Positions 16,959 through 29,603 of a DNA stretch of 29,603 nt are shown one piece after another (positions within the stretch are counted from its first letter, which is position 1; the number at the start of each line of letters is the position of its first letter). Origin of the DNA: a virus. A program made the position numbers and the translations under genes. Location: the IMG/VR virus record IMGVR_UViG_3300028025_001179, positions 1 through 29,603 of that record; one strand, 5' to 3'. A model generated the notes under the pieces. The model was not told the origin of the DNA and did not search any database. It saw only the letters and a program-made list of their open reading frames with translations.

Positions 16959-17936
16959 TTAAAATTCAGTTATGATTGTATTAGCCGTATATGATGATGT
17001 AGCATTAGCATTTGCTGGATTTGGTCTAATATCAATCTGTACATATTTTTGTGGTGTAATGTTGTATGAAGTAAACTTATAATTTGCTAAGGTATTAACG
17101 CCGTATATAGGTTGAGTAGAAACAAAATCACCATTGATGTTTGTTAAGTGTAACTTATTGTTTTTCCATAACACAACTTTACCAGTAGCAATTGCTGTAC
17201 TTCTTGTATATCCTTGATAAACATCCTCACCAATCTGATATGTTCCCGTACCTGATGCAGCATTAATAGAAAATTCTACCACTTGGTCTGGTGTAATCTG
17301 ATTGTAAATTGATGTGATGGAATGTGTGATAACACTTGTTTCTGCTGTTTTACCAAATATGAAACCTTTGACAGTAAAGTTCAAAGTCCATATAACCATT
17401 CTTGGGTCTTTTTCTCTGTTACCCTCATATGTTATATCTTGATTACAACTATTTAAAACAATAGGAACTTCTTTAATGATTCCCATTTCAGGAACCATAT
17501 TTAATTTAATAGTGTAATCTGGTGTAAAGTATGGTAGAATGTGTTCTATTAGCTGAGTACCATCTTCAATATTACGAACATAGAGATATAAATTAAAATC
17601 AAAATTGTAAGGCACGGGATTGTATTGACCGATAACACCGCCTGCTGTTGATGCAAAGTTCTTAACATTGGTATTTAATTTTCTGGATGTATCATATGAC
17701 ATACCAGTCATTTCAAACGACATTCTTGGTAAGGTCATTTGAACTTTTTTGTCAAGTGCCAAATCTTCTTCAAGTCTCATCACATATGATTCTTTTGCTG
17801 CATATGCAATAGGCACCAAAAATCTTTCTTGTTCAGACAAATTTGGATTGTATCTAACCAATGTAATATCTTTGAATAGATTACCAAAACCTACTACAAG
17901 TTTTCTAATAGTTCTATTGTAATACGGTGTTGACAT
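16959..17936 (-). CDS. 15: Tail sheath stabiliser / tail terminator gp15
   Basis: Hexameric terminator that caps the finished tail and joins it to the neck. It has 325 aa (T4: 272). T4 gp15 landmarks: YYNRTIRKLVVGFGNLFKDI, VPIAYAAKESYVMRLEED, LPRMSFEMTGMSYD, GQYNPVPYNFDFNLYLYVR, EHILPYFTPDYTI and RMVIWTLNFTVKGFIFG. The extra C-terminal 90 residues, after about 235, are Asn/Thr-rich and not in T4. It overlaps the gp14 stop (TAATG). Confidence 0.93.
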   Translation of the reverse strand: MSTPYYNRTIRKLVVGFGNLFKDITLVRYNPNLSEQERFLVPIAYAAKESYVMRLEEDLALDKKVQMTLPRMSFEMTGMSYDTSRKLNTNVKNFASTAGGVIGQYNPVPYNFDFNLYLYVRNIEDGTQLIEHILPYFTPDYTIKLNMVPEMGIIKEVPIVLNSCNQDITYEGNREKDPRMVIWTLNFTVKGFIFGKTAETSVITHSITSIYNQITPDQVVEFSINAASGTGTYQIGEDVYQGYTRSTAIATGKVVLWKNNKLHLTNINGDFVSTQPIYGVNTLANYKFTSYNITPQKYVQIDIRPNPANANATSSYTANTIITEF

Positions 17937-18817
17937 TAGATTGGCCCAAACGGATTGGTTTCTGAGAAGTCTATGATACTATTGGCTTCTTCAAATATAT
18001 GTTGATTGTCATAGGTTTCATTTCTTGTAGAATCTTTTAACGGATCAAATGAAATTAATCTATGTCTTGCGTTACTTGTTACACCAATAATCAATACATT
18101 ATCTGTAAATTCACCATTAATATTTGTGACACTTAATGTATTTGATGTGTTACTCCAGCTTTGTACTGTAGCAGTAACAATTGCATTTGCATATGTGTTG
18201 TCGTTAGATTGAAACACAACTTCTTTTTGTGTATAGTTATTTGCACCTCTGGCCACATTCAAATCAATTGTATAGCCAGACTGAGAAACAACATCATCAA
18301 TCTCAAACACACCGGTATCAATGACTTCTTGTGAGTATTTGAATTTCTCCATTTCCAATTCGTAGTAATATGGAATTTTACGACCTAACATGAAGAAGTC
18401 TTTAGTTTGATTCACAAATTTAATTTCAAACAATTCACCAGTACCATTTAGAAACGGCACATAAATCAAATCACCTTCACGGGGTCTATTAAAAGAATCT
18501 TGTGGCACTCGTTGAGAGAAAGAACGCTTAGAGATAATAACATTGATGTTATTTTTAATCTCAAGTCCAAACTTTGAGAAGAATTCTCTTTCGCCGCCGT
18601 ACTCCATAGAACTTGATAGGTAGAATTCTACTGGAAATGCTGAACTAAATTTCTTAACTGGATCTTCACCATAAAGTATGTCTCGGTCTTCCTCATTAAA
18701 GATAGGAAGATAGTAGGCGTCAAAACCCATAATCTTTATGGACTCTGTAATCAAGTCCTCTACTACCCGTTGTTCGGATAACGAGTTGTAATTATTAAAA
18801 TAGACGGAGGTAGCGAT
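17936..18817 (-). CDS. 14: Neck protein gp14, with non-canonical start (ATC) at the HEG border
   Basis: Connects the portal-side gp13 to the tail. Landmarks: ESIKIMGFDAYYLP, ILYGEDPVKKF, FFSKFGLEIKNN and REGDLIYVPF. The first canonical start is TTG at 18754 (272 aa), but 21 codons upstream in frame (VYFNNYNSLSEQRVVEDLI) align with the T4 gp14 N-terminus (VNFNHYKNSQILADVLV), so the protein should be about 293 aa, starting at the codon 18817-18815. That codon is ATC, not ATG, one base after the HEG stop. No ATG, GTG or TTG lies between the in-frame stop at 18829-18827 and TTG 18754. A weak AGG lies eight bases before ATC. Function is firm; the start is unresolved. Confidence 0.88.
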   Translation of the reverse strand: MATSVYFNNYNSLSEQRVVEDLITESIKIMGFDAYYLPIFNEEDRDILYGEDPVKKFSSAFPVEFYLSSSMEYGGEREFFSKFGLEIKNNINVIISKRSFSQRVPQDSFNRPREGDLIYVPFLNGTGELFEIKFVNQTKDFFMLGRKIPYYYELEMEKFKYSQEVIDTGVFEIDDVVSQSGYTIDLNVARGANNYTQKEVVFQSNDNTYANAIVTATVQSWSNTSNTLSVTNINGEFTDNVLIIGVTSNARHRLISFDPLKDSTRNETYDNQHIFEEANSIIDFSETNPFGPI

Positions 18818-18818
18818 T

Positions 18819-19508
18819 TTATGTACCTACTCTTTCAATTTTTCGTTTTCTATTCAAAGCTGCTTGCCTCATTTTTTCTATGGTTTCTGGAGAATGTTTT
18901 TTGCCAATTTGTTTTTTTGCAATTGCACTTAATTTCTTTTTGGTTTCATCTGATACAATCCGGCCTTTTCTACTTTCACTCATTTTCTTTTTAGTTTCAT
19001 TTGAAAGTTTCCAAGTTTTACCTTTTGCGTGTTGATTACCAATTTTTGTTAAATTGAATTGATTCCTTCTAATATCTTTTTCTTCTTCCGTTAGATTGTT
19101 CCAAAACGATTTTGATTTTTCTGCCAACAATTTTCTATGATTTTCGTCCTGCATTATTTTTTTAATACGTTCACTATTTTGTTTATTTTGTTCTTCTGTT
19201 GGTTTCCATCCAAATGTTCCTTCACCACCATCAGTTTCATTATAACCATTCAATTTTGTATCTAATTTTTTAATCCAATTTTTTTCTTTCTCAAATAATT
19301 CTTCTTTTGTATTAGCCTCATCTAACTGATAAACAATAAAATTTTCTAATCCATGTTTCAACATGGCACTATGTATATAACAATGTTTTGGTGAACCAGG
19401 ATTTTTGGCAATTTGTTTATGTTGTTTATAACGCCTATTGATTTCTCCTTTGGTTACACCAATATATTTTTTACCAATCAATTTGTTTTCTATACAATAT
19501 ACTTTCAT
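18819..19508 (-). CDS. GIY-YIG homing endonuclease with NUMOD3 repeats
   Basis: Free-standing homing endonuclease inserted between genes 13 and 14. It has 229 aa. The N-terminal GIY-YIG domain reads VYCIENKLIGKKYIGVT (VYC in place of GIY, KYIG for YIG), followed by INRRYKQHKQ with the catalytic Arg, and then FEKEKNWIKKLDTK and NGYNETDGGEG. From about residue 150 there are NUMOD3-type DNA-binding repeats (SNETKKKMSESRKG, SDETKKKLSAIAKK, SPETIEKMRQAA). It is more A-rich and Lys-rich than its neighbours. It has its own perfect late box and an SD-sequestering hairpin, and its stop abuts the gp14 start. Confidence 0.93.
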   Translation of the reverse strand: MKVYCIENKLIGKKYIGVTKGEINRRYKQHKQIAKNPGSPKHCYIHSAMLKHGLENFIVYQLDEANTKEELFEKEKNWIKKLDTKLNGYNETDGGEGTFGWKPTEEQNKQNSERIKKIMQDENHRKLLAEKSKSFWNNLTEEEKDIRRNQFNLTKIGNQHAKGKTWKLSNETKKKMSESRKGRIVSDETKKKLSAIAKKQIGKKHSPETIEKMRQAALNRKRKIERVGT

Positions 19509-19516
19509 AAAATTCT

Positions 19517-19543
19517 CCTTTTTATTTTATTTATATAAAAAGG
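19517..19543 (-). promoter_or_regulatory. RBS-sequestering hairpin upstream of the HEG
   Basis: On the minus strand, CCTTTTTAT (19543-19535) and ATAAAAAGG (19525-19517) form a perfect 9-bp stem with a 9-base loop. The HEG Shine-Dalgarno AAGGAG (19520-19515) lies mostly in the 3' arm. Transcripts reading in from gene 13 would hide the ribosome site, while those starting from the late promoter in the loop would lack the 5' arm. Confidence 0.65.
19528..19535 (-). promoter_or_regulatory. Late promoter for the HEG
   Basis: Perfect TATAAATA on the minus strand, in the loop of the 19517-19543 hairpin. The predicted start is about 19522, giving a very short leader that still contains AAGGAG. Confidence 0.65.
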
Positions 19544-19570
19544 ACATTTGAGCACCATTTGAATATTTAC

Positions 19571-20344
19571 TCAATTCATAAACATTTCTAAAGGAGCCCC
19601 ATATTTGTCACCAATCTCTGCATGCAAAGCATTAATTTCATTGTCGGCTTCTTGATAAATCTTATCGCCATTCAATGTAACACCGCCTGGTAATTGAATA
19701 CCATTAAACTTTTTAAGGTTGTTACCCCAAGAACGTTTGATTAAAGCAGTGGCATATTCTTTTAACCAACGGTCATTCCATGCCTGTGTATAAACATCTG
19801 GATTAATTGTGGCATAACATTCTGCCACCACAACTGTACCAATTGGTGCTTGAGATTGTCCCCAAGACCAATCAATGTAGAGTCTTTCCATGTGTCTTTG
19901 GTACCTAATAGGAACTTCACCGGTGAACAGTTGTTCTAACATACGTAGATGTTGTAGTGTCATGGTGTAATTGATGTAGGACGCTGAGGTGAAGTCATAT
20001 AACTCATTCAGACGGAGTTGGTATCTCAAGTCAAACATGGTAATAGTTGCCTGAGAATCATATAACGGAAATATTCTGGTGATACCAGTAATCTCCAAAC
20101 GATTATTGGCATCATCTAACGTATTGGATAAATCTATGTAACGATTGTTGATATCCGTTTGGTCAACACGTTTAACGTAATAGATTTTTTGTAGACCATC
20201 AAAGTGATAATCTTGCCAGTATTGTAAAGCATCATCAATACGGTCTTCCACCTGGTCGTCATCAACGTTGATTTCGATAACTGGAAATCCTAGTCTACGT
20301 AGACAATAGTCTTTAAATGCACTTCTTGATGTTATTGTGGCCAT
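19571..20344 (-). CDS. 13: Neck protein gp13
   Basis: Head-completion protein that binds the portal after packaging and, with gp14, forms the neck. It has 257 aa (T4: 309). Landmarks: the N-terminal FKDYCLRRLGFPVIEINVDDDQ, the helix RIDDALQYWQDYHFDG, TRIFPLYD, HLRMLEQLF, and the C-terminal WLKEYATALIKRSWGNNLKKF, with LPGGVTLNGDKI, as in neck proteins of this family. ATG 20344. In other T4-like phages gene 14 follows directly; here the HEG lies between them. Confidence 0.93.
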   Translation of the reverse strand: MATITSRSAFKDYCLRRLGFPVIEINVDDDQVEDRIDDALQYWQDYHFDGLQKIYYVKRVDQTDINNRYIDLSNTLDDANNRLEITGITRIFPLYDSQATITMFDLRYQLRLNELYDFTSASYINYTMTLQHLRMLEQLFTGEVPIRYQRHMERLYIDWSWGQSQAPIGTVVVAECYATINPDVYTQAWNDRWLKEYATALIKRSWGNNLKKFNGIQLPGGVTLNGDKIYQEADNEINALHAEIGDKYGAPLEMFMN

Positions 20345-29036: not shown

Positions 29037-29378
29037 TTAAAATACAGTAACTTGTGGCAATACGTTCACAATTCCTTCTAAAACTCTTGTTATATTATTT
29101 GAAGAATTTTTGATGACTACATCATATACATAACGGCCTGCAGCAATATTGGCTGTGTTGGCCGAACCCAAAGAGAGTGCAATGACACCGGTCGCTGGTT
29201 GGCTGATGGTGATTACAAAATTTGCAGTTGTGTTACTGGAATAATAAGATTTTTTGACTTGACTTTTAGCCGCAAATCCGGTAAGGTTATACGCATCACC
29301 ATTCACATCAGTCAAAGTGATAGATGTGTTAAAGTCTGAACCTTGTTCTAAGAATAATTCCTGATATCCGGCACTAAT
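29037..29378 (-). CDS. Structural protein with start codon lost at the HEG border
   Basis: About 113 aa if initiated at ATT 29378; the first canonical start is TTG 29315 (92 aa). The upstream in-frame codons read SIKISAGYQELFLEQGSDF and run smoothly into ITLTDVNGDAYNLTGFAA, the N-terminal pattern of small beta-sandwich proteins of T4-like aquatic phages, so the short form would cut a real domain. The in-frame stop upstream is TAA 29411-29409; there is no ATG, GTG or TTG in between. AAGGAG (29391-29386) lies seven bases before ATT 29378. The codon where an ancestral ATG might be expected (29390-29388) is AGG. The C-terminus is VLPQVTVF. Confidence 0.6.
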   Translation of the reverse strand: MSAGYQELFLEQGSDFNTSITLTDVNGDAYNLTGFAAKSQVKKSYYSSNTTANFVITISQPATGVIALSLGSANTANIAAGRYVYDVVIKNSSNNITRVLEGIVNVLPQVTVF

Positions 29379-29379
29379 T

Positions 29380-29603
29380 TTAATACTCCTTGGATTGTAT
29401 ATTAGTATTTATGGCGTTTTCTTTTCTTAGTTTCCACCATTTTTTAACTGCTTCACTGGTTCTTTTTTTAACTTCTTCACTTTGGCTGCCGGTTTTTAAT
29501 CCTTTATTCCAAGGTATACTTCCTCTTAAAGTTTGGCTTATTTTATTTCTTGTTTCTTGTGTTTTTTCTAAACCCATTTTAGATTCACTTATTTTTTTCT
29601 TTG
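29380..29603 (-). CDS. Homing endonuclease C-terminal part (NUMOD3 repeats), 5' end outside window
   Basis: The frame is open to the window edge. Seen: KKISESKMGLEKTQETRNKI, SQTLRGSIPWNKGLKTGS, SEEVKKRTSEAVKKWWKLRK. These are NUMOD3 DNA-binding motifs (the WNKGL signature) and match the C-terminal half of the HEG at 18819-19508. The nuclease domain must lie beyond 29603; GIY-YIG is likely but not visible. An internal ATG at 29577 is unlikely to be the real start. Its last codons, AAG GAG TAT TAA, also supply a ribosome site for the next gene. Confidence 0.82.
   Translation of the reverse strand, partial: KKKISESKMGLEKTQETRNKISQTLRGSIPWNKGLKTGSQSEEVKKRTSEAVKKWWKLRKENAINTNIQSKEY
29406..29413 (-). 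promoter_or_regulatory. Possible late promoter inside the HEG 3' end
   Basis: CATAAATA on the minus strand (7 of 8), within the HEG coding end and 28 bases before the ATT start of the next gene. It could keep that gene expressed after the insertion. Confidence 0.38.

Follow-up and report, generated by a model that had tools for sequence, protein, structure and literature searches.

How is a virion gene translated if its frame holds no canonical start codon where its homologues begin, and if the gene immediately upstream appears to be that of a mobile endonuclease? The question is raised by the window, the whole stretch of 29,603 bases analyzed here, which is an entire IMG/VR virus record of a T4-like phage, with gp13, gp14, a sheath stabilizer, both terminase subunits, a tail sheath and a scaffold recognized on its minus strand. 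Close to its end, a tail fiber assembly gene follows what is very probably, judging from its domain content, a homing endonuclease gene (HEG):

29037 to 29378, minus strand: 'L-shaped tail fiber protein assembly' gene, 113 aa (phrog_3304, E 2.6e-23; phrog_1084, E 5.5e-24)
29376 to 29378, minus strand: ATT, start-codon position of the phrog_3304 gene (homologues have ATG there; L388 is a second ATT allele)
29380 to 29601, minus strand: HEG2, a NUMOD3-bearing ORF (PF07460), the C-terminal 73 codons, cut by the contig end
29386 to 29391, minus strand: AAGGAG Shine-Dalgarno (SD) sequence, formed by the last codons (K-E) of the upstream ORF
29405 to 29412, minus strand: ATAAATAC, late-promoter-like, within the upstream ORF

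The Start of the Tail Fiber Assembly Gene

The frame of the phrog_3304 gene is indeed free of ATG, GTG and TTG from the stop TAA at 29411 to TTG 29315, as an earlier note on this DNA had claimed, and from ATT 29378 it translates as I-S-A-G-Y-Q-E-L-F-L-E-Q-G. The gene matched 119 phage records, and the comparison with HEG-free homologues, proposed in the same note, places ATG where the window has ATT 29378: about 70 IMG/VR homologues align from residue 1, nearly all with ATG at this position, the five exceptions starting one codon earlier (L069, L070) or one codon later (L071 to L073). TTG 29315, named in the note as the start that would refute the claim, is used by none of the listed homologues, which favors the ATT position, and the suggestion that protein-like sequence continues up to about 29390 (AGG) had to be abandoned, as the homologues begin at ATT 29378 and not at AGG 29390. 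At the level of sequence, the observation is confirmed and is not an error: ATT 29378 occupies the start-codon position of the gene.

The upstream ORF scores 24.0 bits for NUMOD3 (PF07460; cut-off 20.4), with no nuclease domain visible in the 73 codons within the contig. It terminates with TAA (29382–29380), and its AAGGAG (29391–29386) is positioned, as had been noted, 7 nt ahead of ATT 29378. The leader of this junction, AGGAGNATTAAA, recurs ahead of ATT starts of other genes, and (T)ATAAATAC or CTAAATAC is found approximately 28–36 nt ahead of the ATG in many HEG-free phrog_3304 homologues, ATAAATAC presumably being akin to a T4-type late promoter. A prfB-like +1 frameshift at AAGGAG-TAT-TAA, joining HEG2 to the phrog_3304 gene, was considered and judged improbable: UAU would re-pair poorly with AUU, and a virion protein carrying HEG-derived sequence would be unlikely.

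A pattern scan for ATT or ATC (ATY) starts uncovered only one further ATY allele of this gene, L388, which is otherwise diverged from the gene in the window but agrees with it in the ATT and in the AGGAGNATTAAAATTAGTGCCGGATATCA block, with no HEG upstream; thus, ATT can occur at this gene without a HEG, and the claim of the earlier note that the HEG took away the start codon of this gene is, as worded, not supported. The single HEG-bearing allele known is the one in the window, and the link of this start to the HEG is suggested by this allele and by analogy with gp14.

The gp14 Locus

The analogy is with a second junction in the window:

19571 to 20344, minus strand: gp13 (head-tail adaptor; phrog_211, E 4e-42), upstream neighbor of HEG1
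19516 to 19544, minus strand: hairpin enclosing the HEG1 ribosome-binding site (fold −8.9 kcal/mol, z −1.3)
18819 to 19508, minus strand: HEG1, GIY-YIG homing endonuclease with NUMOD3, between gp13 and gp14 (PF01541, PF07460, phrog_314)
18819 to 18830, minus strand: HEG1 tail GTAGGTACATAA (V-G-T-stop) with an SD-like TAGG inside, from tail comparison
18815 to 18817, minus strand: ATC, start-codon position of gp14, from allele comparison
17936 to 18817, minus strand: gp14 neck protein gene, 293 aa from ATC (PF11649 T4_neck-protein; phrog_460 head closure Hc2)

The two junctions do share the layout ascribed to them, TAA-A-ATT at 29378 and TAA (18821–18819)-A-ATC 18817 at gp14, both with a +1 frame step. 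In HEG1 the GIY-YIG catalytic domain is present (PF01541, 32.1 bits, cut-off 22.6), and PF07460 is also above cut-off. HEG1 is an optional insertion at a fixed site, as many relatives have an empty gp13-TAATATG-gp14 junction, in HEG-free relatives typically gp13-AAC-TAA-T-ATG-GCA. The leader of HEG1 can pair UCCUUUUUAU with AUAAAAAGGA around the ribosome-binding site, with a late promoter, TATAAATA (19535–19528), in the loop; this hairpin is only modestly better than shuffles, and it resembles hairpins of T4 HEGs (PMC2988022). A search for a structure common to ATY junctions returned no fold better than shuffles.

Among 99 distinct gp14 alleles, a HEG-type tail, GTAGGNACCTAAR, is present in 43, of which 29 have ATT and 14 have ATC, while all 56 tail-less alleles have ATG. 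In every one of the 43 tail-bearing alleles the tail TAGGNACCTAAR precedes the ATT or ATC. The association of tail and ATY (43/43 versus 0/56; Fisher 5e-29) bears out the argument that the repeated layout is no chance error, although, with alleles related and not independent, both the counts and the test are descriptive. Most of the tail-bearing alleles came from a search pattern in which the third start base was free, and among unrelated hits to the same pattern ATG (11) and ATA (9) were common. This pattern and the HEG-based search are the only two unbiased surveys; the searches with AAATY... and AGGAGAATTAAAATY selected on ATY, and their ATT/ATG ratio is uninformative.

The tail is common to two unrelated HEG kinds, a GIY-YIG type (MKVYCIENK) and an HNH-like type (HHIIPKHMGG), the latter without a Pfam match and called HNH by its motif and its annotated HNH relatives. 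The HNH-type insert is placed exactly between the native ATG and codon 2 (TAATATG, insert, GC). In six alleles (L122, L285, L290, L322, L333, L354) the HEG is wholly or mostly gone, yet the tail and the ATY are retained, and in two of these scars, L322 and L333, the ATY start does not adjoin a stop codon, so stop-start coupling is not general. Some HEG-bearing alleles have kept to ATG at this site (L124, L126, L142, L165–168, L183–191), and ATY is therefore not required for HEG carriage. In Synechococcus phage MA10 a HEG likewise lies between neck genes and ATG is kept; a search for isolates with ATY at gp14 found none.

Could the upstream ATG still serve, a hidden intron or a ribosomal bypass linking it to codon 2, so that initiation on AUY would not be needed? 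Exact excision of the HNH-type insert would restore TAATATG-GCAACC, but the 5′ boundary of GIY-YIG inserts shows no conserved ATG, scars of approximately 15–60 nt still have ATY, and no Rfam match for the catalytic RNA of a group I intron was found in the window. This very improbable explanation was rejected. An origin of the ATY codons in sequencing or assembly error, or in pseudogenes, is just as improbable: the sequences are metagenome contigs, and only two ATT alleles exist for phrog_3304, but the 43 distinct gp14 alleles come from many metagenomes and show purifying selection over codons 2–21, refuting such an origin for gp14. Over these codons pN/pS is 0.25 in ATY alleles and 0.15 in ATG alleles, and close ATY pairs have a pN of 0.06 and a pS of 0.55, a pattern expected if the codons are translated, and thus indirect support for translation of the ATY alleles.

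On the gp14 tree, the start state switches at least 9 (supported branches) to 15 times. Codon 2 also differs, GCA being found in 47/56 ATG alleles versus 10/43 ATY alleles; a canonical-type codon occurs at position 5 in 10/43 ATY alleles. A simple I-TevI-like rule finds no matching CNNNG motif at the start of gp14. The exclusive use of pyrimidines as the third base at gp14, along with the tRNA-Ile(GAU) in three genomes (G001, G002, G008), would be in line with a phage-encoded initiator tRNA with a GAU anticodon reading AUY. This idea is barely credible and was dropped: these tRNAs do not have the features of initiators, the GGG/CCC anticodon stem being absent, and a tRNA-Ile(GAU) is also present in the control genome G011, in which gp14 starts with ATG.

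Other Genes and Isolates

ATT or ATC starts are found on at least four genes besides gp14 and phrog_3304. In the survey selected on AGGAGAATTAAAATY, ATT starts occur on phrog_11591 virion genes, on sheath-stabilizer-like genes (phrog_11196/227), on the gp21 protease gene, on a 'TKRLEELF' gene (phrog_16202) and on others, with a HEG preceding (L445, L480, L504, L505, L517) or with none (L465, L469, L479, L486, L514). Isolate relatives of phrog_11591 (Phosso, Atu_ph07, Ettore, SCTP-2) are annotated as starting at the corresponding codon. Like the window, L445 carries two ATT-start virion genes, on one 6.9-kb contig. At L426:1783, a small SGGHFNYEQYRI gene has an ATT start behind TTAGGAGAATTAAA, with no HEG immediately upstream, and in L483 and L490, AGGAGAATTAAAATT coincides with a frame change within a DNA polymerase-like gene, which looks as though it had been divided into two ORFs.

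The genes with no HEG before them have a bearing on the order of events. AUY may have come first, as an ordinary feature of the leader (AGGAGAATTAAA-ATT), with HEGs inserted later upstream of the SD and gaining a C-terminal K-E-N or K-E-Y by read-in. We consider this order unlikely. The five HEG-less genes above, as well as L388 and L426, have the same leader with ATT, and HEGs from two families end in K-E-N at that leader, but the combination of tail and ATY is missing from every HEG-free native gp14 junction, and ATG is the codon found in those homologues of the phrog_3304 gene that have no HEG.

The survey based on the HNH HEG, which was blind to the start codon, detected ATY after the HEG at two sites. 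At the TKRLEELF gene, five alleles have ATY (L566, L567, L568, L569, L573) and four have ATG (L574, L587, L591, L603); at phrog_11591, several have ATT, whereas L610 and L633 have ATG and L589 has GTG. The survey of other junctions that the earlier note had called for thus upheld one part of its expectation, the same non-ATG pattern being present at many other HEG/structural junctions, and not the other, as TAA-A-ATY is not obligatory: a strict rule of this form was rejected because in L567 and L568 the HEG stop falls 8 nt inside the next gene. With HEG junctions having ATG also in existence, ATY is frequent, not universal.

One isolate presents a related case. In cyanophage S-SRM01 (L651, MW015081), whose host is Synechococcus KCZYC6, an HNH HEG separates gp14 from gp15, and gp15 has ACG at the codon that is ATG (ATG TTA GGA ACA) in P-SSM2, S-SKS1 and S-T4. 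The deposited S-SRM01 gp15 is 39 codons short (L651 2001–2118), the native-ATG codon, ACG, directly following the HNH HEG. The annotated gp15 of S-T4 (L655, MH412654) is 72 codons short (292–508) despite the ATG being present, and gp15 of S-SKS1 (L653, HQ633071, 1592) has no annotation at all. The first residues of the S-SRM01 HEG (L651 1459–1490), M-K-T-Y-Y-H, are similar to those of gp15, M-L-G-T-Y-Y-Y-H, and were possibly captured from the displaced gp15.

A Proposed Mechanism

As far as sequence can tell, the HEG likely sits at the start of the virion gene, and its 3′ tail likely supplies both an SD and a near-cognate start. The position of a free-standing HEG would coincide with the point where translation of a virion gene begins; in the case of the HNH type at gp14, the native TAATATG would be turned into the start of the HEG itself. 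The last bases of the HEG (the SD-like TAGG, the stop, A, and ATT or ATC) would now serve gp14 as its initiation region, and gp14, likewise the phrog_3304 gene at 29378, would be initiated on AUU or AUC via the SD in the HEG tail, possibly helped by re-initiation of ribosomes that have just terminated at the HEG stop, one base upstream. HEG-less scars keep the tail and the codon, and the AUY state thus outlasts the HEG. The basis of the mechanism is in positions, conservation, recurrence, and selection on codons 2–21. AUU and AUC are weak starts in E. coli, and what speaks against the mechanism is that scars nevertheless retain ATY, with no reversion.

As to why AUY would persist, we tentatively propose that the HEGs of T4-like phages may target the start codon itself of essential virion genes. 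With ATG part of the nuclease target, its loss would shield the HEG-bearing or scar allele; the HEG-bearing allele would protect itself by a change of AUG to AUY (or ACG), the SD in the last codons of the HEG sustaining translation, and the start in a scar would be a homing-resistance allele. Such target loss fits the lack of ATG in the 43 alleles, the ATY kept in scars, the shifts at codon 2 and the ACG of S-SRM01, and it is doubtful as a general need because of the HEG-bearing alleles with ATG.

We are rather inclined to doubt a simpler account, in which the HEG takes the start and the ribosome-binding site of the gene hostage, and the gene survives only via a near-cognate start and the SD that the HEG tail provides, AUY being just what the 3′ end of the HEG had to offer and nearly neutral, its third base drifting between T and C, with no role in immunity to the nuclease. 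It draws on the use of the native ATG by the HNH-type HEG, on T and C both being common as the third base, on the tail retained in scars, and on the promoters of the next gene that T4 HEGs carry inside their ORFs, said to favor HEG retention (PMC2988022). Zero ATG and zero ATA in 43 alleles would be surprising if the third base were free and ATG a better start, and the shift at codon 2 also counts against it. Neutral T/C drift following one founding change may also account for AUY persistence.

Relation to Known Systems

The Aeh1 nrdA and gene 60 cases are known examples of a HEG at or in an essential gene. The free-standing seg and mob HEGs of T4, such as segG at gene 32, are similar to those described here, being GIY-YIG or HNH HEGs between conserved T4-like genes that carry expression signals of the next gene and have a ribosome-binding site hairpin with a late promoter in the loop (PMC2988022). 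The promoters of the downstream gene within T4 HEG ORFs are thought to favor retention of the HEG (PMC2988022), and an SD and a start in the HEG tail would extend this theme, the difference being that the embedded signal here is a ribosome-binding site with a non-AUG start that replaces the AUG of the neighbor. With mobE (T4 nrdA/nrdB; Aeh1 nrdA) and mobA/gene 60, the likeness is in a HEG at or in an essential gene whose function is kept. With mobE, there is also a stop-start overlap (nrdA UAAUGA mobE), but it is the start of the HEG itself that overlaps the upstream stop, unlike here, and for mobE and mobA the review describes no loss of the AUG of the neighbor. Cellular genes with AUU or AUA starts, such as infC and the staphylococcal cvfC1 and ccpN, are similar in that a strong SD directs a near-cognate start, as is known in Staphylococcus (PMC13009471), but these are single cellular genes, whereas here many virion genes are tied to mobile elements. 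In the hidden insertion of the ShiLan type, an HNH ORF has a non-AUG start and TAA is at the end of the insert (PMC11855218); there, the odd start belongs to the HEG, out of frame inside the host gene, while here the start of the neighbor is altered. In the open-access literature, no report of HEG-linked non-AUG starts was found.

Conclusions

Among uncultured T4-like phages, small genes of mobile endonucleases lie exactly at the starts of essential virion genes, and in place of the AUG of the neighbor there is repeatedly an AUU or AUC, preceded by a ribosome-binding site within the tail of the mobile gene. Few triplets in a genome are as conserved as start codons, and if a mobile element repeatedly left essential genes with no start other than AUU or AUC, this would show that such codons can serve virion genes naturally. 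Annotation that allows for only ATG, GTG and TTG would truncate or miss such genes, as exemplified by the 39 codons missing from gp15 of S-SRM01. The choice of a nuclease target and the identity of a start codon would also be linked in a testable manner, with S-SRM01 as an isolated phage for such a test.
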